Program-made: the position numbers and the translations under genes
The notes under the pieces: model-generated
Databases searched by the model: none
What the model saw: the letters and a program-made list of their open reading frames with translations, nothing else
Told to the model about the DNA's origin: nothing
Origin: Metallosphaera hakonensis JCM 8857 = DSM 7519
GTDB lineage: Archaea; Thermoproteota; Thermoprotei_A; Sulfolobales; Sulfolobaceae
Direction: 5' to 3'
NCBI RefSeq assembly: GCF_003201675.2
Contig: NZ_CP029287.2
Coordinates: forward strand, 434,001-498,000
Length of the DNA stretch: 64,000 bases
Shown: piece by piece, positions 7,516 to 55,408 of the stretch
Position numbering within the stretch: the stretch's first letter is position 1
Layout of the letters: every line of letters begins with the position of its first letter

Positions 7516-10339
7516 GTGTACAGAATAATCCTGCTTACGATCATGATAATAATCTCCACTATCTCAGTTTCTCAGTCCATCAATTCACATTTACACGAAT
7601 TACCCTCACACGTTCGTTCAGATCCTTCCATCTCCTTCAATTTACCTTCTGGATTTTACAATTATTTTCCATGTAATGTGTACAGTGGCCAGAACATTAC
7701 GGGCATCACGGATTCCAACTCCCCAGTGACCTTAATGATAATGAGTCAGGCTCAGTTCAACAACTATCAAAGCACCGGCGTTACCCAGGCTCTGTTTACA
7801 GGTTACGGTGTAGTCGTGGATTTCAATGTTGGCCCGTTGTCGTCAGGGGTGTACTATGTTGTGGTAGTGAACAACTACACGGGCTCAGCTAACGTCTTCC
7901 TCAGTTACAAGACAATCCCCATTGTTCCCTACACTGTTCACTCCTCCCCACCAGCTCCCATTGGGATTGTAGATTACGGAGTTCTCAACACCTCAAGTGG
8001 ACTCCTGGGTTACACCGAAAAATTTAACGATGTCATGGGAAACTTCACCATATACCAACTCTCAGCTTATAACTCCACCCCTCCCCAGGGAATATCACCC
8101 TACGGTGCTTCGCTCCAATTGAACGTAGTACTTCAGGTTAACACGGTACACGGTTCATATCAATACTGGCTCCAGGACGTTCCCACATTCCTCACCAATA
8201 GCGATACCATGGCCCTGGAGGACAACGTTTGGAACTTCACCTCATTTCCATCCCTTCTCTCCAATCAATCCGTGAAGGGATCAGGATACGTATACTCCTT
8301 TAGCTCAGGATTAAACACTGAGTATTTTTACGCATATGGAACCCAGTGGTTCAGATATCACCTACCGCTCTCTGGAAAAGTCGTCATAAGAGAGACCAGC
8401 GAGAGTAACGGGGTCCTTGTTCAATTCGGTTACTATAATGGGACCATCAACTGGTACGACAACGTCACAATCAGTCAACCTGGGGTCACTGGCGCTTATC
8501 TCCTTGTGGACGGATTCAACATGACGGGAAGCGGAAATTACTACGACGCTGAGCTGGTCTTCGGAGGAGAAGGCAATGGGGAAGTAACTTACTTCAATTC
8601 CATGAACTCGACCTTGGGTCTCTATTACTTAGCCAATGGGACTACAATCTCTCCCCAAGAACTGTACGGTTTCGGGGCAGACACTGCAGAGGGAGCCGAC
8701 AACGTCAGGACAACACTGCTCAACGGCGTTCCGGACGTTGTACTAGGTCAAGAGAACTTTTACGAGCCTCTCGTGCTCCCCTTGTTGGGTAAGTTCGCCT
8801 TTCACGTAATTAGGGCAGAAGAGGGATTACCCGTATTGGTTAACGTATCGGTGAACGTAACCGGTGGAGTTGGTCCCTACACCTTCTTGATATACTTGGA
8901 TCACGTTCCCATAAAAACGTTCTCGGGTTACAGTCTCGCCCAGGAGCTAGATCTAGGAGAACTCTCCCCTGGGATCCACAACCTCACGATAGTCGTGGTG
9001 GATAGGACAGGGGATAAGATGAGTGGATATACCTCCATCACAGTTACGTCAGGGCCCTCCGTGGTCATATCTTCCCAAACGGTAATTGATTCTGGGGAAA
9101 CATTGACAGTCTATATCCACGAGTTAGGAGGTACTCCACCATATACCGTTAGACTTCTCGTGAATGGAACCTCATACCAGGTTCAGGGAGACAAGTTCAC
9201 CCTCTCGCTCCCTCCTGGAGTTTATAGGATTTATGCCGAGATCACGGACTCCTCGGGATTGTCATCAACTTCAAACGTCCTCACCGTGAGGGTGAACCCA
9301 CCCCTAAACGTTTCCTTGAAATTTCCGTCTACGCTGGACGTCGGAGAGGTAAGAAACCTAAGCGTTGTCCCTCACGGAGGAACACCACCCTACGTGGTTC
9401 GGGTCACAGTGAACGGGACGTTGATTACGGGACCATTGAACTTCACGGTCCCTGATGAGTACCTCTTGGAGGTGAGAGTGACGGATCAGGTTAACGTTTC
9501 ATCCATTGCGAAGATGATAGTCACGGTAAATCCTGACCCTGTACTTAAGATAGAGTATTACCCTGAACTGGACGTGGGAGAGAAAGAGAACATTACTGTG
9601 TTAGTGGATGGGGGATCTCCTCCTTTCACGGTGATGATATATCCGCTGAATCCTGACCTCCAGGTTCATGGGAAGCATAACCATAACGCCGATTAACCTG
9701 GGTCTTGGAAATCACACCCTCATAATCTCCCTGGTCGATTCCTCGGGTTACGTTGTAAACGCGAGCAAGACAGTTCAAGTCAACCCTGACCCAAGGCTCA
9801 CGATCGTGGAGAACGCAACTGTGACGGATCAGGGTATTCCCATACTTCTAAACGTTAATTATTCTGGGGGAACCCCGCCGTACACACTAACTTGGTCAAC
9901 GGGAACATCGTCAACTGCTTACCTGTTCTACGGAGAACCTGGTCTCCATAACGTGACTGTGACTTTAAGGGACGGAACAGGCTACGTAGTGAACAAAACC
10001 GTTTCGCTTCAAGTGAACCCTAAACTTAACGTGAGCCTTTCGCTTTCTCTTTTGAACCAATTTCTAGGAGAGGTCGCTTTAGGTAAGACGTCGATCTCTG
10101 GGGGCACTCCGCCGTACACCCTCACCTGGATTGTTGACGGAAAGATAGAGGGATCCAACTCTTCCCTAAACTTGGCCTTAACCCCTGGTTCTCACAACAT
10201 TACTGTGATAGTGAAGGACTCGATAGGAGCCATCGCGGAGAGAACTGAGATCGTAAACGTAGGTTACGGGTACATCCTTCTACTGGTCCCTCTAGCTACC
10301 GTTGGAGTTATTATAGCTTGGATGTTGAGAAGGAGATGA
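7516..10339 (+). pseudogene. Thermopsin-like (A5) surface protein with Ig-like repeats, frameshifted
   Basis: A GTG start gives a signal peptide (MYRIILLTIMIIISTISVS). Residues about 120-420 match thermopsin, the acid protease of Sulfolobales (APIGIVDYGVLNTSS, GYTEKFNDVMGNFTIY, YWLQDVPTFLT). About six Ig/PKD-like repeats with the signature GG-PPYT(V/L) follow, then a C-terminal membrane helix (YILLLVPLATVGVIIAW) and RRR anchor. Many N-x-S/T sites fit a glycosylated outer-surface protein. The frame shifts at about 9668-9673: dropping one base joins LQVHG to SITITPINLG and gives about 940 residues. It may be a true pseudogene or a sequencing error. Confidence 0.82.
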
Positions 10340-15172: not shown

Positions 15173-16457
15173 GAGAGTGTCCCGAACGCAAATAATTGAA
15201 TAAATCTATGTACAAGTTCATGGAGAATTATTCAAAAGAGAAGGTAAATTGGTGAGAAATTTTGAATTTTCTTTTGACGTTAAAGGTCGCGTAATACTTA
15301 TAGGGAACCGGGACGTTGTAATACCGATAGATATGAAACCGTGGATACAATACTACAACGGTACGGTTCCCTACGAATACTTGTCATCGTGGCATAAAAC
15401 TCTTGTGAAGATGAACTACATGTTGGTCACGTCGGAGGTGTTGTCGCGTCTAGATGACTTCGTGTTGAGGGCGTTGATAGTCATGGTCGTGTGGAGGTGT
15501 TCCTACAGGAACGTGCGGAGCTTCTACATGACTGACGTGGTGGTAAGGTGGTTCCTAGGGGAGTGCAAGTCCAAGTCGGAGATCCACAGGAGGGCCAAGG
15601 GATTTAGGGAAGTGTTCAAGGAGGCCTTCAAGGAACATGTAAAGGAGTTGGAGGGGAAGTTGAGCGCGCTAACTGACTACCTGCCCAGCAGCGCGTTATA
15701 TGGGAAGGTCTGGAAACTTTGGGCTGTGGACTCCTTCATAATCGAGGTCCCCTTCGGGAAGAGGAACAGGGAGACCTTGAAGAAGAAGTTCGAGCTCGAA
15801 CTGAGGCAGGGGAAGTTGAGGGACGCAGCTGACCGGCTCTACCAATTCATGAAGTGCAAGATAAGGAGGAGGTTTAAGGGACAGTTCACCAAGAAGAGGA
15901 ATCGAAGTTACTTCGGCTTCAAGGTATTCATAGCCATATCGCCCACAATGTTGATCCACGAGATTCAGGTTGAATTGGCCAACTTCCCTGACAACGAGGT
16001 CGACTTCTTCCTAAGCGGTTACAAGGTAGTGGACAGAGGATTCGTGGGGAAGTCCTCGACCTGGTTGATCGGCTTCCCCAGTTTCAGGAGGCACGTGGAG
16101 TTCTTCGGGACCTTCTTGAAGAACTACTGGAGACCCTACGCGGTTGACAGGGAGATGACCGAACTCTTCGTCTACGTCATCGCGTTGATCTACAACTCCT
16201 CGATGTACACCTCGGTCCTGTCTCGGGTCCCCGAGACTCAGCTCGCCCATTGACTTCTCGAGCGAGCAAGTCGAGTGGGGTAGTGAGGGGTATGTTGAAA
16301 ATTCTGTTTTTCTCCACAATTGGTTAATTTGCCTTACAGTATAAGATCGATCTTCAGTTACACTGAAAGATATAACTGTATTTCATCCTTGAAATCTTAT
16401 AATATTATATTTCTCTCTTGATATTTTTATTCAATTATTTGCGTTCGGGACACTCTC
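15173..16457 (+). mobile_element. ISA copy 1 (1285 bp, IS5-superfamily-like)
   Basis: Complete element with inverted terminal repeats beginning GAGAGTGTCCCGAACGCAAA and a 4-bp target duplication TGGA (15169-15172, 16458-16461). Inserted into the ISB transposase gene. Its internal 3' tail carries GGTTAATTTGCC where copies 2 and 3 share GGTTAATTTGTC. Confidence 0.93.
15249..16253 (+). CDS. ISA transposase, copy 1
   Basis: 334 residues, DDE type: D in WAVDSFIIEVPFG (about 163), D in GYKVVDRGFVGK (about 257) and a C-terminal REMTELFVYVIALIYN segment supplying the glutamate. The basic middle (KKRNRSYFGFKVF) precedes the second aspartate, as in IS5-type enzymes. The protein is identical to copies 2 and 3. 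Start is the TTG/GTG-type codon just after GGTAAA at 15245. Confidence 0.88.
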   Translation: MVRNFEFSFDVKGRVILIGNRDVVIPIDMKPWIQYYNGTVPYEYLSSWHKTLVKMNYMLVTSEVLSRLDDFVLRALIVMVVWRCSYRNVRSFYMTDVVVRWFLGECKSKSEIHRRAKGFREVFKEAFKEHVKELEGKLSALTDYLPSSALYGKVWKLWAVDSFIIEVPFGKRNRETLKKKFELELRQGKLRDAADRLYQFMKCKIRRRFKGQFTKKRNRSYFGFKVFIAISPTMLIHEIQVELANFPDNEVDFFLSGYKVVDRGFVGKSSTWLIGFPSFRRHVEFFGTFLKNYWRPYAVDREMTELFVYVIALIYNSSMYTSVLSRVPETQLAH

Positions 16458-16954: not shown

Positions 16955-18239
16955 GAGAGTGTCCCGAACGCAAATAATTGAATAAAAATATCAAGAGAGA
17001 AATATAATATTATAAGATTTCAAGGATGAAATACAGTTATATCTTTCAGTGTAACTGAAGATCGATCTTATACTGTAAGACAAATTAACCAATTGTGGAG
17101 AAAAACAGAATTTTCAACATACCCCTCACTACCCCACTCGACTTGCTCGCTCGAGAAGTCAATGGGCGAGCTGAGTCTCGGGGACCCGAGACAGGACCGA
17201 GGTGTACATCGAGGAGTTGTAGATCAACGCGATGACGTAGACGAAGAGTTCGGTCATCTCCCTGTCAACCGCGTAGGGTCTCCAGTAGTTCTTCAAGAAG
17301 GTCCCGAAGAACTCCACGTGCCTCCTGAAACTGGGGAAGCCGATCAACCAGGTCGAGGACTTCCCCACGAATCCTCTGTCCACTACCTTGTAACCGCTTA
17401 GGAAGAAGTCGACCTCGTTGTCAGGGAAGTTGGCCAATTCAACCTGAATCTCGTGGATCAACATTGTGGGCGATATGGCTATGAATACCTTGAAGCCGAA
17501 GTAACTTCGATTCCTCTTCTTGGTGAACTGTCCCTTAAACCTCCTCCTTATCTTGCACTTCATGAATTGGTAGAGCCGGTCAGCTGCGTCCCTCAACTTC
17601 CCCTGCCTCAGTTCGAGCTCGAACTTCTTCTTCAAGGTCTCCCTGTTCCTCTTCCCGAAGGGGACCTCGATTATGAAGGAGTCCACAGCCCAAAGTTTCC
17701 AGACCTTCCCATATAACGCGCTGCTGGGCAGGTAGTCAGTTAGCGCGCTCAACTTCCCCTCCAACTCCTTTACATGTTCCTTGAAGGCCTCCTTGAACAC
17801 TTCCCTAAATCCCTTGGCCCTCCTGTGGATCTCCGACTTGGACTTGCACTCCCCTAGGAACCACCTTACCACCACGTCAGTCATGTAGAAGCTCCGCACG
17901 TTCCTGTAGGAACACCTCCACACGACCATGACTATCAACGCCCTCAACACGAAGTCATCTAGACGCGACAACACCTCCGACGTGACCAACATGTAGTTCA
18001 TCTTCACAAGAGTTTTATGCCACGATGACAAGTATTCGTAGGGAACCGTACCGTTGTAGTATTGTATCCACGGTTTCATATCTATCGGTATTACAACGTC
18101 CCGGTTCCCTATAAGTATTACGCGACCTTTAACGTCAAAAGAAAATTCAAAATTTCTCACCAATTTACCTTCTCTTTTGAATAATTCTCCATGAACTTGT
18201 ACATAGATTTATTCAATTATTTGCGTTCGGGACACTCTC
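16955..18239 (-). mobile_element. ISA copy 2 (1285 bp), left breakpoint of an inversion
   Basis: Complete, opposite in orientation to copies 1 and 3, with TCAA on both sides (16951-16954, 18240-18243). The left flank is ISB transposase and the right flank is the 25-bp tandem array, so the two flanks come from different insertions. See the inversion finding. Confidence 0.93.
17159..18163 (-). CDS. ISA transposase, copy 2
   Basis: 334-residue DDE transposase, identical in sequence to copies 1 and 3. The reading frame is intact and probably active. Catalytic motifs are as described for copy 1. Confidence 0.88.
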   Translation of the reverse strand: MVRNFEFSFDVKGRVILIGNRDVVIPIDMKPWIQYYNGTVPYEYLSSWHKTLVKMNYMLVTSEVLSRLDDFVLRALIVMVVWRCSYRNVRSFYMTDVVVRWFLGECKSKSEIHRRAKGFREVFKEAFKEHVKELEGKLSALTDYLPSSALYGKVWKLWAVDSFIIEVPFGKRNRETLKKKFELELRQGKLRDAADRLYQFMKCKIRRRFKGQFTKKRNRSYFGFKVFIAISPTMLIHEIQVELANFPDNEVDFFLSGYKVVDRGFVGKSSTWLIGFPSFRRHVEFFGTFLKNYWRPYAVDREMTELFVYVIALIYNSSMYTSVLSRVPETQLAH

Positions 18240-26680: not shown

Positions 26681-27965
26681 GAGAGTGTCCCGAACGCAAA
26701 TAATTGAATAAATCTATGTACAAGTTCATGGAGAATTATTCAAAAGAGAAGGTAAATTGGTGAGAAATTTTGAATTTTCTTTTGACGTTAAAGGTCGCGT
26801 AATACTTATAGGGAACCGGGACGTTGTAATACCGATAGATATGAAACCGTGGATACAATACTACAACGGTACGGTTCCCTACGAATACTTGTCATCGTGG
26901 CATAAAACTCTTGTGAAGATGAACTACATGTTGGTCACGTCGGAGGTGTTGTCGCGTCTAGATGACTTCGTGTTGAGGGCGTTGATAGTCATGGTCGTGT
27001 GGAGGTGTTCCTACAGGAACGTGCGGAGCTTCTACATGACTGACGTGGTGGTAAGGTGGTTCCTAGGGGAGTGCAAGTCCAAGTCGGAGATCCACAGGAG
27101 GGCCAAGGGATTTAGGGAAGTGTTCAAGGAGGCCTTCAAGGAACATGTAAAGGAGTTGGAGGGGAAGTTGAGCGCGCTAACTGACTACCTGCCCAGCAGC
27201 GCGTTATATGGGAAGGTCTGGAAACTTTGGGCTGTGGACTCCTTCATAATCGAGGTCCCCTTCGGGAAGAGGAACAGGGAGACCTTGAAGAAGAAGTTCG
27301 AGCTCGAACTGAGGCAGGGGAAGTTGAGGGACGCAGCTGACCGGCTCTACCAATTCATGAAGTGCAAGATAAGGAGGAGGTTTAAGGGACAGTTCACCAA
27401 GAAGAGGAATCGAAGTTACTTCGGCTTCAAGGTATTCATAGCCATATCGCCCACAATGTTGATCCACGAGATTCAGGTTGAATTGGCCAACTTCCCTGAC
27501 AACGAGGTCGACTTCTTCCTAAGCGGTTACAAGGTAGTGGACAGAGGATTCGTGGGGAAGTCCTCGACCTGGTTGATCGGCTTCCCCAGTTTCAGGAGGC
27601 ACGTGGAGTTCTTCGGGACCTTCTTGAAGAACTACTGGAGACCCTACGCGGTTGACAGGGAGATGACCGAACTCTTCGTCTACGTCATCGCGTTGATCTA
27701 CAACTCCTCGATGTACACCTCGGTCCTGTCTCGGGTCCCCGAGACTCAGCTCGCCCATTGACTTCTCGAGCGAGCAAGTCGAGTGGGGTAGTGAGGGGTA
27801 TGTTGAAAATTCTGTTTTTCTCCACAATTGGTTAATTTGTCTTACAGTATAAGATCGATCTTCAGTTACACTGAAAGATATAACTGTATTTCATCCTTGA
27901 AATCTTATAATATTATATTTCTCTCTTGATATTTTTATTCAATTATTTGCGTTCGGGACACTCTC
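26681..27965 (+). mobile_element. ISA copy 3 (1285 bp), right breakpoint of an inversion
   Basis: Complete, with TTGA on both sides (26677-26680, 27966-27969). The left flank is ISB transposase N-terminus and the right flank is a tandem-array unit, the reciprocal of copy 2. Confidence 0.93.
26757..27761 (+). CDS. ISA transposase, copy 3
   Basis: 334-residue DDE transposase with intact frame, identical in protein sequence to copies 1 and 2. Its element also shares with copy 2 a noncoding variant (GGTTAATTTGTC) absent from copy 1, as expected for recombination partners. Confidence 0.88.
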   Translation: MVRNFEFSFDVKGRVILIGNRDVVIPIDMKPWIQYYNGTVPYEYLSSWHKTLVKMNYMLVTSEVLSRLDDFVLRALIVMVVWRCSYRNVRSFYMTDVVVRWFLGECKSKSEIHRRAKGFREVFKEAFKEHVKELEGKLSALTDYLPSSALYGKVWKLWAVDSFIIEVPFGKRNRETLKKKFELELRQGKLRDAADRLYQFMKCKIRRRFKGQFTKKRNRSYFGFKVFIAISPTMLIHEIQVELANFPDNEVDFFLSGYKVVDRGFVGKSSTWLIGFPSFRRHVEFFGTFLKNYWRPYAVDREMTELFVYVIALIYNSSMYTSVLSRVPETQLAH

Positions 27966-31456: not shown

Positions 31457-32737
31457 GAGAGTGTCCCGAACGCAAATAATTGAATAAAAATATCAAGAGA
31501 GAAATATAATATTATAAGATTTTAAGGATGAAATACAGTTATATCTTTCAGTGTAACTGAAGATCGATCTTATACTGTAAGGCAAATTAACCAATTGTGG
31601 AGAAAAACAGAATTTTCAACATACTCCTCACTACCCCACTCGAATCGCGCGAGAAGTCAATGGGCGAGCTGAGCCTCGGGGACCCTAGACAGGACCGAGG
31701 TGTACATCGAGGAGTTGTAGATCAACGCGATGACGTAGACGAAGAGCTCGGTCATCTCCCTGTCAACCGCGTAGGGTCTCCAGTAGTTCTTCAAGAAGGT
31801 CCCGAAGAACTCCACGTGCCTCCTGAAACTGGGGAAGCCGATCAACCAGGTCGACGTTTTCCCCACGAATCCCCTGTCGGCTATCTTGTAACCGCTTAGG
31901 AAGAAGTCGACCTCGTTGTCAGGGAAGTTGGCCAGTTTCACCCGAATCTCGTGGACCAACATGGTAGGCGATATCGCTATGAAGACCTTAAAGCCGAAGT
32001 AACTTCGATTCCTCTTCTTGGTGAACTCGCCCTTGAACCTCCTGCTTATCTTGCAGTTCACGAATTGGTAGAGCAACTTGGGCAAGTCCCTGTACTTCCT
32101 CTGCTTCAGGCTCAGCCGGATCTTCTTCTTCAAGGTCTCCCTGTTCCTCTTCCCGAAGGGGACCTCGATTATGAAGGAGTCCACAGCCCAAAGTTTCCAG
32201 ACCTTCCCATATAACGCGCTGCTGGGCAGGTAGTCAGTTAGCGCGCTCAACTTCCCCTCCAACTCCTTTACATGTTCCTTGAAGGCCTCCTTGAACACCT
32301 CCCTAAATCCCTTGGCTCTCCTGTGGATCTCCGACTTGGACTTGCACTCCCCTAGGAACCACCTTACCACCACGTCAGTCATGTAGAAGCTCCGCACGTT
32401 CCTGTAGGAACACCTCCACACGACCATGACTATCAACGCCCTCAACACGAAGTCATCTAGACGCGACAACACCTCCGACGTGACCAACATGTAGTTCATT
32501 TTCACAAGAGTTTTATGCCACGATGACAAGTATTCGTAGGGAACCGGACCGTTGTAGTATTGTATCCACGGTTTCATATCGATCGGTATTACAACGTCCC
32601 GGTTCCCTATAAGTATTACGCGACCTTTAACGTTAAAAGAAAATTCAAAATTTCTCACCAATTTATCTTCTCTTCTGAAAAATTCTCCATGAACTTGTAC
32701 ATAGATTTATTCAATTATTTGCGTTCGGGACACTCTC
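31457..32737 (-). mobile_element. ISA copy 4 (1281 bp), divergent in the middle
   Basis: Full inverted repeats, TTGA duplication (31453-31456, 32738-32741). Inserted near the 3' end of a membrane-protein gene. Confidence 0.92.
31657..32661 (-). CDS. ISA transposase, copy 4 (mosaic variant)
   Basis: 334 residues. The first 177 and the last 60 or so are almost identical to copies 1-3, but residues about 178-262 differ strongly (KKKIRLSLKQRKYRDLPKLL in place of KKKFELELRQGKLRDAADRL; KIADRG in place of KVVDRG). Catalytic residues are kept. The block pattern suggests recombination between related elements. Confidence 0.88.
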   Translation of the reverse strand: MVRNFEFSFNVKGRVILIGNRDVVIPIDMKPWIQYYNGPVPYEYLSSWHKTLVKMNYMLVTSEVLSRLDDFVLRALIVMVVWRCSYRNVRSFYMTDVVVRWFLGECKSKSEIHRRAKGFREVFKEAFKEHVKELEGKLSALTDYLPSSALYGKVWKLWAVDSFIIEVPFGKRNRETLKKKIRLSLKQRKYRDLPKLLYQFVNCKISRRFKGEFTKKRNRSYFGFKVFIAISPTMLVHEIRVKLANFPDNEVDFFLSGYKIADRGFVGKTSTWLIGFPSFRRHVEFFGTFLKNYWRPYAVDREMTELFVYVIALIYNSSMYTSVLSRVPEAQLAH

Positions 32738-50557: not shown

Positions 50558-51600
50558 GTGCGTTGTGGATCGCTTCAGAATTATACAAAAATTTTTAAAT
50601 AATCGCGTCGAGTATTACTCATGGAGAGGAGCAAGTACACGAGGGACTGGAGCAAGTACGACGAGAACGTGGTAACTAGGTACGAGTTGATGTTCCCGTT
50701 CTACGTCTTCGAGCACTGGTGGGAATTACTTCAGGAGGAGAACAGGCACGCTAGGACCAAGTATAAGGCGCCCAAGGAGTTCAACGACTTCCTAGCCTTC
50801 CTGCACGTGTTCTTTCCTTACAGGGGAGTGGAAGGGGTGCTTAGGGCATTAGAGAGGGCGGGAATCATCCCCACGAGCTTGGACTACTCCACCGTGTGGA
50901 AGAGGGTCTCGGAAATGGAGTTGACCTTCCCCGAGACCAACGAGGAGCTTGAGGTAATAGCTGACGGTACGGGTATCAGCACGGATAGGGGAGGTCAGTA
51001 CGTGGTCGCGAGGTGGGGTAAGAAGAGGTACTCCAAGTTCCTCAAGATCGAGGTGGTCATGGACAAGGGAGAGTTCAACGTGATCAGCGCCGAGGTCACG
51101 ACCAACGAAGTCGAGGCTGCGGTCGAGACCGTGAAGGACCTACAGGCCCAGGGTAAGGAGGTCAAGAAGTTCTACGATAAGACTTACGACGCCAACAAGG
51201 TCTACGAGACGGGAGTCGAGGTCGTCGTCCCGCCCAGGGAGAACGCCTCCACCAACGGGGACATCCCGCCAGACGAAAGGCCGTGCGGGAGTTCAGGAAG
51301 TTGGGCTACGAGAGTTGGAGGGATAAGAAGGGCTACGGGATGAGATGGCTCGTGGAGTCCCTATTCTCAGTGAAACGAACCTTCGGGGAGTCGGTCCGGG
51401 CCACGAGTTTCCACGGTCAGGTAGTGGAGGCTAGGCTCAAGTTTTGGGTCTACGCCTGGATGACCTACATAACCAGGTCGTGGGGAGAGCTCCAGGGATC
51501 AAGGTCAAGACTTAACGACCAGATTAATATAAATAATTGCTGAAGAGCTATTTACACTATATTATTCTCATGAAATAAATTGAACCAATACACAAAGCAC
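50558..51600 (+). mobile_element. IS5-type element, about 1043 bp
   Basis: Imperfect ends GTGCGTTGTGGATCG and, inward from the right, GTGCTTTGTGTATTG, with AACATAT on both sides (50551-50557, 51601-51607). It lies about 50 bases before the MFS start, just upstream of its TATA box. An inverted fragment of the same element is at 58245-58426. Confidence 0.78.
50621..51543 (+). pseudogene. IS5-family transposase, frameshifted
   Basis: MERSKYTRDWSKYDENVVTR, then D in VIADGTGISTDRGG and D in KKFYDKTYDANKVY. A one-base shift around 51255-51285 moves to the frame giving WLVESLFSVKRTFGESVRAT with the catalytic E. It resembles the Sulfolobus ISC1058 group (recalled, not tested). Inactive. Confidence 0.82.
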
Positions 51601-52081: not shown

Positions 52082-52170
<89 letters not shown>

Positions 52171-52385: not shown

Positions 52386-52395
52386 GCTATATAAT
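52386..52395 (+). promoter_or_regulatory. TATA box of the cysteine-rich peptide operon
   Basis: GCTATATAAT about 25 bases before the TTG at 52415 and the GTG at 52421. A purine-rich BRE-like stretch (GATAAAAAGCG) precedes it. Confidence 0.6.
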
Positions 52396-52414
52396 TATTA
52401 ATAGGGTTAGTAGT

Positions 52415-52600
52415 TTGATTGTGAGGAAATTTTTAGAAATAGATTCCCAGGGCAAAATCCTTCATGAATCCAAAATAAATATCGATATAAGTAAAGTAGA
52501 AATTGATCAAAACAAGAGATCTGAAGCTTCTAAGAGGATAGAAGCGAGAGAAGTACAAGTAAACACATTAGAAGGAGGAAAAACGAGCCCATACAATTAA
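52415..52600 (+). CDS. Small hydrophilic protein, first gene of the cysteine-rich peptide operon
   Basis: 61 residues (TTG start at 52415; a GTG at 52421 is also possible), charged and without cysteines: KFLEIDSQGKILHESKINID through EREVQV-type helix to GGKTSPYN. The stop TAA shares its last base with the next ATG (TAATG), so translation of the two is coupled. Could be a chaperone, leader or regulator of the next gene; no family recognised. Confidence 0.6.
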   Translation: MIVRKFLEIDSQGKILHESKINIDISKVEIDQNKRSEASKRIEAREVQVNTLEGGKTSPYN

Positions 52601-53250
52601 TGAAAATAACTAGTGAGGCTATAACAAGCAAGAAAAGGAAAATTAGAATTACAACATTTTATTACAAAAACAAAAATCTGTACTATGATGCACAGATATA
52701 TACTTTAATACTAGAAGATCCTGATGACACTGCTAAGCGCTTATTTTATACTGTAGCTGATATATATCCAAGAGACCGTCGAGCACTGGAGCAGTTTGAT
52801 TTAATTGTAGCGAAGGATAAGGTAAGCTTAGAAACACATTATAGAATTCTTTCATCTATTATAGGAAGGAATCAGCCAAACGAGGAAGAATTAGATCAAA
52901 TAATTAAACCTCTGTCGTCAGAGCTCGAAATATTCAGCAAAATGATCGGAAAATACGTAGACCTTCATCAGGTCGGAAATCATATGGCTCTTGTCGGAGA
53001 TCAAAGTATATTTACATGTATAGAGAGTTTGCTTAGTTTAGGAGACTGTTTACTAACAACCTCTGAAGCTATAGATTTATGCCCTCTCTGTGCTCAAGTT
53101 GTAACTTGCATACCAGCTTGTGTAGACATATTCACCGCACCGGTCTGTCTGGCTTGCGAAGCTACGGGATTAGGAGGTTGTATTGTCTGCCTAATTGCAG
53201 CTTATGTATGTTACGACGCTGCTTTGGCAGTTAGGAATAATTGTCTCTAG
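52600..53250 (+). CDS. Candidate archaeocin precursor with a 12-cysteine C-terminal domain
   Basis: 216 residues with an extreme split. Residues 1-139 contain no cysteine and form a charged alpha/beta region (KKRKIRITTFYYKNKNLYYD). The last 77 residues contain 12: C140, 150, 161, 164, 170, 174, 183, 186, 194, 197, 204 and 215, set in a hydrophobic, Gly/Ala-rich sequence (CEATGLGGCIVCLIAAYVC). Halocin C8 precursors have the same plan: an N-terminal immunity part and a roughly 76-residue, 10-cysteine peptide. No clear signal peptide. An alternative is a disulfide-stabilised membrane or metal-binding protein. Confidence 0.65.
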   Translation: MKITSEAITSKKRKIRITTFYYKNKNLYYDAQIYTLILEDPDDTAKRLFYTVADIYPRDRRALEQFDLIVAKDKVSLETHYRILSSIIGRNQPNEEELDQIIKPLSSELEIFSKMIGKYVDLHQVGNHMALVGDQSIFTCIESLLSLGDCLLTTSEAIDLCPLCAQVVTCIPACVDIFTAPVCLACEATGLGGCIVCLIAAYVCYDAALAVRNNCL

Positions 53251-53274
53251 GTCAAAGCTAAAGGTGATTACGTT

Positions 53275-53475
53275 ATGCCAAGTGGTAACTCAAGGTATTT
53301 AATTTTCATAGCAGTAATGATATCGCTTCTCATTGTAGCAACTGCTATTGCAACTTACTACTTCATATCTTTCATCAGTACTAACTTCAAGGCTTTTTTT
53401 ATTACTGCGAACGTTTTAGGAATACTTGGGGCTTACTCAATTTATAAGAGGTTAAGGAGAAGACAACACAATTAA
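53275..53475 (+). CDS. Small two-helix membrane protein, third gene of the operon
   Basis: 66 residues with two membrane segments (YLIFIAVMISLLIVATAIAT and FKAFFITANVLGILGAYSIY) and a basic tail RLRRRQHN. Starts 22 bases after the upstream stop, with a Shine-Dalgarno-like GGTGAT 5 bases before the ATG, as expected for an internal operon gene. A small basic membrane protein next to a peptide precursor is typical of immunity or export helpers (inference). Confidence 0.65.
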   Translation: MPSGNSRYLIFIAVMISLLIVATAIATYYFISFISTNFKAFFITANVLGILGAYSIYKRLRRRQHN

Positions 53476-53814: not shown

Positions 53815-54138
53815 CAGTTATTCTACTTTTCCTTGGTAATACGAAATTCCCAGTACTACCGATAAAGCATTTAATTTAGCGTTTAGTTGATCGAAAACTG
53901 TGAAGTCCGAGAAAGAACTAGACGTAGCGAGGAGTAAGTTCATCAAGTCCTTCAATTACCAAGTCGGAATACTGAAGATGAACGGGTTAAGCAGAAAAGT
54001 CTCACTAGGTTTAGCACTCACGGCCTTGATAGGAGGAAGGGCAAGCATCAGAAACGCGTCCATCACCTTCGGGCTAAACTACGCCAACTCACTAAAAGCA
54101 CTAGAGGACTTAGAAGACACTTGGAGTGACTACCTTGA

Positions 54139-55408
54139 GAGAGTGTCCCGAACGCAAATAATTGAATAAATCTATGTACAAGTTCGTGGAGAATTTTTCA
54201 GAAGAGAAGATAAATTGGTGAGAAATTTTGAATTTTCTTTTGACGTTAAAGGTCGCGTAATACTTATAGGGAACCGGGACGTTGTAATACCGATCGATAT
54301 GAAACCGTGGATACAATACTACAACGGTCCGGTTCCCTACGAATACTTGTCATCGTGGCATAAAACTCTTGTGAAGATGAACTACATGTTGGTCACGTCG
54401 GAGATGTTGTCGCGTCTAGATGACTTCGTGTTGAGGGCGTTGATAGTCATGGTCGTGTGGAGGTGTTCCTACAGGAACGTGCGGAGCTTCTACATGACTG
54501 ACGTGGTGGTAAGGTGGTTCCTAGGGGAGTGCAAGTCCAAGTCGGAGATCCACAGGAGAAGGGATTTAGAGAAGTGTTCAAGGAGGCCTTCAAGGAACAT
54601 GTAAAGGAGTTGGAGGGGAAGTTGAGCGCGCTAACTGACTACCTGCCCAGTAGTGCGTTATATGGGAAGGTCTGGAAACTTTGGGCTGTGGACTCCTTCA
54701 TAATCGAGGTCCCCTTCGGGAAGAGGAACAGGGAGACCTTGAAGAAGAAGATCCAGCTGAGCCTGAAGCAGAGGAAGTACAGGGACTTGCCCAAGTTGCT
54801 CTACCAATTCGTGAACTGCAAGATAAGCAGGAGGTTCAAGGGCGAGTTCACCAAGAAGAGGAATCGAAGTTACTTCGGCTTTAAGGTCTTCATAGCGATA
54901 TCGCCTACCATGTTGGTCCACGAGATTCGGGTGAAACTAACTTCCCTGACAACGAGGTCGACTTCTTCCTAAGCGGTTACAAGATAGCCGACAGGGGATT
55001 CGTGGGGAAAACGTCGACCTGGTTGATCTTCCCCAGTTTCAGGAGGCACGTGGAGTTCTTCGGGACCTTCCTGAAGAACTACTGGAGACCCTACGCGGTT
55101 GACAGGGAGATGACCGAACTCTTCGTCTACGTCATCGCGTTGATCTACAACTCCTCGATGTACACCTCGGTCCTGTCTAGGGTCCCCGAGACTCAGCTTA
55201 CCCATTGACTTCTCGCGCGATTCGAGTGGGGTAGTGAGGGGTATGTTGAAAATTCTTTTTTTCTCCACAATTGGTTAATTTACCTTACAGTATAAGATAG
55301 ATCTTCAGTTACACTGAAAGATATAACTGTATTTCATCCTTGAAATCTTATAATATTATATTTCTCTCTTGATATTTTTATTCAATTATTTGCGTTCGGG
55401 ACACTCTC
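54139..55408 (+). mobile_element. ISA copy 5 (1270 bp), degenerate
   Basis: TTGA duplication (54135-54138, 55409-55412). Carries small deletions relative to copy 4 but the same variant middle block. Confidence 0.9.
54215..55208 (+). pseudogene. ISA transposase, copy 5, three frames
   Basis: Frame shifts near 54560 (bases lost at HRRAKGF) and near 54940, plus a small in-frame loss near 55025, break the 334-residue protein into 54215-54604, 54514-54972 and 55002-55208. The middle matches copy 4 (KLLYQFVNCKISRRFKGEFT), not copies 1-3. Confidence 0.88.

Follow-up and report, generated by a model that had tools for sequence, protein, structure and literature searches.

To our knowledge, few archaeocins have been characterised outside the haloarchaea. 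Makarova et al. are said to have described archaeal polymorphic toxins, as well as an extended halocin C8 family, in 2019. A single halocin C8 gene is reported to confer production as well as immunity (Sun et al. 2005, cited in PMC8628083). For Sulfolobales, reports are limited to sulfolobicin and to toxins carried by viruses (PMC8628083). The sulfolobicins of Sulfolobus acidocaldarius are antimicrobial proteins whose genes, according to work cited in the same article, form a small cluster. Protein B310 of the Sulfolobus spindle-shaped virus SSV9 is a secreted toxin of about 310 amino acids (aa) with a signal peptide. Its gene is followed by C108, a gene for a small three-helix membrane protein, and it is B310, not C108, that protects the producer (PMC8628083).

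The locus considered here consists of three ORFs in a window of 64,000 nucleotides, i.e. the whole stretch of DNA that was analysed. According to GTDB, its genome belongs to the family Sulfolobaceae (order Sulfolobales, class Thermoprotei_A, phylum Thermoproteota). An earlier note on this DNA had described a hydrophilic 61-aa ORF, a 216-aa ORF and a two-helix membrane protein in an AT-rich stretch adjoining a tRNA gene. All three ORFs are found in this layout, and the GC content is 36% at 52-54 kb, between flanks of about 50% (left) and 46-48% (right). The features of the locus are:

52388..52394, forward strand: TATATAA, a TATA-box-like element about 24 nt 5' of the ORF1 start, read by eye
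52415..52600, forward strand: ORF1, 61 aa, hydrophilic, TTG start, TAATG-coupled to ORF2
52600..53250, forward strand: ORF2, 216 aa, whole gene of the putative precursor
52600..53007, forward strand: ORF2 residues 1-136, cysteine-free scaffold domain (AlphaFold2 model, profile homologues)
53008..53250, forward strand: ORF2 residues 137-216 and stop, the 'type A' module, hydrophobic and helical with 12 cysteines, putative active peptide
53275..53475, forward strand: ORF3, 66 aa, predicted to have two membrane helices, basic at the C-terminus, putative partner in immunity or export

The stop codon of ORF1 overlaps the start codon of ORF2 (TAATG at 52598-52602), and 24 nt separate the end of ORF2 from ORF3. 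The placement of the TATATAA element would be compatible with a leaderless operon transcript starting at ORF1. With respect to codon usage, the own frame scores best for each of the three ORFs. The tRNA gene (52082-52170) was found with Rfam and missed by ARAGORN; it apparently bears an intron. Its 3' end has no second copy within the window, which gives no support for a tRNA-linked element.

Insertion sequences abound in the window. Four near-identical ORFs of 334 aa, presumably an IS gene, are located at 15249-16253, 17159-18163, 26757-27761 and 31657-32661, and a decayed fifth copy (54215-55208) directly follows the ORF1-3 locus. The AT-rich locus sits between a DDE transposase that is split over two frames (50621-51543, left) and a fragment of an ISC1217-type transposase (53900-54169, right). 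A long secreted repeat protein at 7516-10339 is encoded in two overlapping frames and possibly frameshifted.

The cysteines of ORF2 are located at residues 140, 150, 161, 164, 170, 174, 183, 186, 194, 197, 204 and 215. None therefore falls within the first 139 residues and 12 fall within the last 77, as already described in the earlier note. Under random placement of 12 residues such clustering has p = 2e-6. The window contains 278 stop-to-stop ORFs of 60 aa or more, and the runner-up among them has no more than 9 cysteines in 77 residues. The clustering is beyond chance, because profile homologues keep the region ahead of the cysteines and, within the same domain type, the cysteines themselves. 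The type A module also occurs in three other genomes (G096, G237 and G130) and in a pseudogene of G124, with shared cysteines. All 12 cysteines of ORF2 align to cysteines in G237, and 11 of the 12 in G096; eight are common to four sequences in the type A alignment. Loss of the cysteines in homologues had been named beforehand as an observation that would speak against the proposed peptide, and within the type A module their conservation is upheld. Between modules of different kinds, and hence across the family as a whole, the cysteine patterns vary. A decayed type A fragment is located in G213, a genome of the window's own family (L142, about positions 1500-1610), and is followed by a membrane-protein-like ORF.

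An AlphaFold2 model of ORF2, built with 18 sequences, predicts five strands, two helices and one strand for residues 1-135 (mean pLDDT about 85), such that ORF2 appears to begin at a domain boundary. For the C-terminal part helices are predicted with low confidence. A fold search of the PDB with this model, including its low-confidence C-terminus, gave nothing convincing (best Foldseek E 0.15). The search against viral models was no more convincing (best Foldseek E 0.07), and VIA Z scores were at most 4.7, which is the range of common arrangements.

The ORF2 protein has no family match in Pfam, NCBIfam, PHROG or PADLOC, and no relative in viral, phage and plasmid collections. A search with the single sequence retrieves remote relatives from other families within the order (best E 1.5e-13). 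With a profile of eight members, the family is detected in nine more genomes of the window's class, not counting a tenth, G134, whose marginal match is to an ORF that looks unrelated, and in another sixteen genomes from a sample of the phylum, i.e. in 25 genomes besides that of the window. Scored against a profile of the relatives alone, with the window sequence left out, ORF2 obtains 72 bits (E 1e-23). Among the sampled genomes of the window's taxonomic family the scaffold is kept in the window genome only. A search of the haloarchaeal class (145 genomes) with the scaffold profile came back empty. Neither the scaffold nor the cysteine-rich modules of this family have a name in Pfam or NCBIfam.

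Full-length members comprise about 315-460 aa and start with a hydrophobic N-terminal segment, as predicted for secreted precursors. They are composed of an N-domain, often with a CxxC motif, followed by the scaffold (motif N-x-T-T-L-S-x-x-Y) and a C-terminal cysteine-rich domain. Ahead of the scaffold, 4 of the 18 aligned members carry a rhodanese domain (PF00581, E 6e-20). At two loci, L097 and L105 (genomes G048 and G339), the N-domain and the scaffold of the precursor are encoded in separate, neighbouring frames, which may reflect a frameshift, a sequencing error or recoding. Some scaffold relatives have a hydrophobic C-terminal part with almost no cysteines (L067, L068, L072, L073), and in 2 of the 25 genomes only members nearly without cysteines were seen; others carry further sequence beyond the cysteine-rich part (L063, L070, L071). 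Given such cysteine-poor and extended members, liberation of a separate C-terminal peptide cannot apply to the whole family. The family shows a patchy distribution, tandem copies and pseudogenes, a combination that is usual for conflict genes.

Scaffold and C-terminal domain were compared separately, in pairs and with shuffle controls, and the two parts give incongruent similarities. The scaffolds of G399 and G478 are 78% identical (z 104), whereas their C-terminal domains are unrelated (z 0.1). Likewise, G237 matches G339 (z 88) and G265 (z 68) in the scaffold, with C-terminal domains at z 0.9 and z 1.3, respectively. The reverse is also observed. The C-terminal domains of the window and G096 are 40% identical (z 18) with scaffolds at z 2.7, and those of G161 and G440b are 60% identical with scaffolds at 21%. 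G440 (L102) harbours two adjacent precursors with 43% identical scaffolds and unrelated cysteine-rich modules, with a rhodanese domain before each. Rapid divergence could account for pairs with similar scaffolds and unrelated C-terminal domains, but not easily for the reverse pairs; module exchange would account for both.

One relative, G129, links the family to halocin C8. The end of its scaffold is identical to that of G130 in 28 of 38 residues (74%) and runs unbroken into a C8-like domain. Using a profile built solely from the C8-like proteins of the window's taxonomic family, this domain scores 44.7 bits (E 7e-13), compared to 5.4 bits for the best of 900 shuffles. Its best NCBIfam match is TIGR04449, covering the full model (1-69) with 14.7 bits, which is below the curated cut-off of 24 bits. 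Since the scaffold runs into the C8-like domain, a halocin-C8-like domain appears to fill the slot that is occupied by the 12-cysteine domain in ORF2, as seen in this single gene, which is cut short where its contig starts. Together with the incongruent similarities, the G129 module gives the family the arrangement expected of polymorphic toxins, namely a conserved N-terminal part with exchanged C-terminal domains.

The genes next to the precursor were compared as well. In 16 of 17 family loci the precursor gene is immediately followed, in the same orientation, by one that encodes a small membrane protein, compared to 9 of 133 controls (p 2e-14). As controls served the remaining genes of these loci that encode 120 aa or more, and at least two helices were required according to a simple hydropathy rule. 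At the 17th locus, G440a, a 144-aa two-helix protein is encoded 178 nt away. ORF2 thus combines the two marks of the scaffold family, a profile match (the 72 bits given above) and a downstream gene for a small membrane protein, ORF3. The downstream proteins are mostly unlike each other in sequence, and ORF3 has no pairwise similarity to the others (best z 4.2). Small membrane-protein genes likewise follow the C8-like genes in Halobacterium and Haloferax plasmids and in the window's taxonomic family, and in haloarchaea the C8-like gene is followed, at 19 of 29 loci, by a short ORF with one or more predicted helices. Among the C8-like genes of the window's family (L036-L041, L052), those checked precede a gene for either a 180-200-aa protein that has two membrane helices at its N-terminus or a 55-aa protein that has one helix. 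Of the two companion genes whose conservation had been in question, a membrane-protein gene is thus present in the equivalent position, whereas the 61-aa ORF1 has no counterpart in the homologues. ORF1 has no significant match in Pfam, NCBIfam, PHROG or PADLOC and no detectable homologue. Its assignment as the detached N-domain of the relatives, i.e. one half of a split gene, is not supported (profile E 0.2 with a set of five, pairwise p from 0.06 to 0.99).

Taken from sequence comparison, the family, its module exchange including the C8-like domain, the shared type A cysteines and the downstream membrane-protein gene point to ORF2 as the precursor of an archaeocin-like peptide. The precursor would belong to a modular family, represented in several groups of the phylum, with a conserved beta-sheet scaffold, exchangeable cysteine-rich modules and a downstream membrane partner. 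We assign this reading a probability of roughly 60%; killing, processing and the role of the partner are its conjectural parts. The C-terminal module (about residues 137-216) would fold with disulfides, be cut from the scaffold during export and, once released, act on the membrane of related cells, with the producer guarded by the scaffold, by ORF3, or by both. The scaffold is also a candidate for immunity by analogy, since B310 rather than C108 protects the SSV9 producer and one halocin C8 gene gives both production and immunity. We infer export, cleavage, disulfides, killing and immunity for the ORF2 system. The chances are slightly better than even that the family constitutes a phylum-wide antagonism system, in which a common secreted scaffold, in some members with a rhodanese domain, carries interchangeable, small, membrane-active cysteine-rich modules, the halocin C8 domain included, and is accompanied by variable small membrane proteins. 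The window would then hold a compact, signal-less version. The main weakness of the archaeocin reading is the missing signal peptide: ORF2 has no hydrophobic signal, even if the frame upstream is included, and most relatives have a signal peptide. The C8-like proteins of the window's family look signal-less too, hence another export route, for example vesicles, may serve there.

The rhodanese domain in several relatives also fits sulfur or redox chemistry. ORF2 and its relatives might accordingly be extracytoplasmic redox, metal-binding or sulfur-handling proteins, whose rhodanese domains, CxxC motifs and cysteine-rich parts handle sulfane sulfur or metals together with a membrane partner. Rhodanese in 4 of the 18 aligned members, CxxC in the N-domain of many relatives and the sulfur-rich habitats agree with such a function. 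We nevertheless consider it unlikely: unrelated C-terminal domains and cysteine spacings on near-identical scaffolds are hard to square with a conserved chemistry, a C8-like module occurs in the same slot, and the window copy has neither a rhodanese domain nor any cysteine ahead of residue 140.

The locus might also be a decaying relic, a non-functional operon that has lost the signal peptide and the N-domain and in which ORF1 is a meaningless remnant. The upstream frame without signal peptide, the IS-rich surroundings, the family pseudogenes in G124 and (as a fragment) G213, and the retention of the scaffold by the window genome alone among the sampled genomes of its family are all consistent with decay. 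However, ORF2 is intact, starts at a predicted domain boundary, carries all 12 cysteines and overlaps with ORF1 in TAATG; codon usage favours the own frame in ORF1 to ORF3; and same-family proteins of the C8 type also appear to do without a signal. A relic is therefore doubtful in our view, and we retain the archaeocin precursor as the preferred reading.

The proposal that ORF2 belongs to the halocin C8 family itself did not withstand comparison by profile. ORF2 has no match to TIGR04449 at E values up to 10, and the window genome has none at E up to 1. Across 229 genomes of the class, the same model finds C8-like proteins in six genomes of the window's family at E of at most 0.001, five of them above the cut-off, and one of the six belongs to the same genus as the window. 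Since C8-like proteins are present in such close relatives and ORF2 gives no match, ORF2 is something else. The C8-like proteins of these six genomes (L036-L041, L052) apparently lack a signal peptide. What stood of the proposal is the layout: ORF2 has the cysteine-free N-terminal part and cysteine-rich peptide of about 76 aa of the halocin C8 precursor, the latter part hydrophobic and followed by a membrane-protein gene. In 23 haloarchaeal C8 precursors, a set that leaves out one record from the plasmid collection, seven of the ten cysteines never vary and the other three hardly do. This pattern is not found in ORF2, which has 12 cysteines with a different spacing. Shallow profile-profile comparison left the window family and C8 unmatched, as it did the positive control, haloarchaeal C8 against the C8-like proteins of the window's family. 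The N-terminal part had been likened to the C8 immunity region. It has no detectable sequence similarity to that region, and the order of predicted elements differs between the two AlphaFold2 models, the halocin C8 precursor being modelled with two helices ahead of five strands, and with four helices at the C-terminus; judged from these models, the ORF2 scaffold is not evidently a HalI immunity domain. A true C8 family member, homologous along the whole precursor, is thus very improbable: the shared plan, the C8-like domain on the G129 scaffold and the cysteine-rich part of G161, whose sole NCBIfam match is TIGR04449 at E 0.91, are outweighed by the missing TIGR04449 match, C-terminal domains with no pair above z 5 against C8 domains, the different predicted scaffold and the scaffold profile that is empty in the haloarchaeal class.

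If correct, the archaeocin reading would connect halocin C8 with hyperthermophilic archaea via one scaffold that carries C8-like and other modules, and it would suggest a route by which archaeal killing peptides diversify. It would also provide numerous candidate peptides, possibly stable to heat and acid, as well as a testable guess at the role of the small membrane proteins that follow halocin-C8-like genes.

With regard to known systems, halocin C8 and C8-like proteins (TIGR04449, NF040679) resemble ORF2 in having a cysteine-free N-terminal part followed by a hydrophobic cysteine-rich C-terminal domain of 70-85 aa, and their loci resemble the window in that a gene for a small membrane protein is often directly adjacent. 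They differ in the number of cysteines (10 versus 12) and their pattern, in the lack of a profile match and in the predicted layout of the scaffold; moreover, haloarchaeal C8 precursors mostly have a twin-arginine-like N-terminus, whereas ORF2 has no signal. The sulfolobicins share with the locus the occurrence in Sulfolobales and the small gene cluster, a likeness at the level of description. SSV9 B310 and C108 correspond to the scaffold family in combining a signal-bearing protein of about 310 aa with a small membrane-protein gene. This is an analogy only: homology was rejected, as B310 has no cysteine and no profile match to the family. The scaffold family may partly be listed already in Makarova et al. 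2019. One text that combines rhodanese, cysteine-rich domains, archaea and polymorphic toxins appears to concern another superfamily. In archaeal polymorphic toxin systems, as in the scaffold family, a common N-terminal part is joined to C-terminal domains that can be exchanged, and the genes are sporadically distributed, with remnants and tandem copies. In those systems, however, the toxin is large and enzymatic, whereas the exchangeable part of the scaffold family is a small, cysteine-rich hydrophobic domain.
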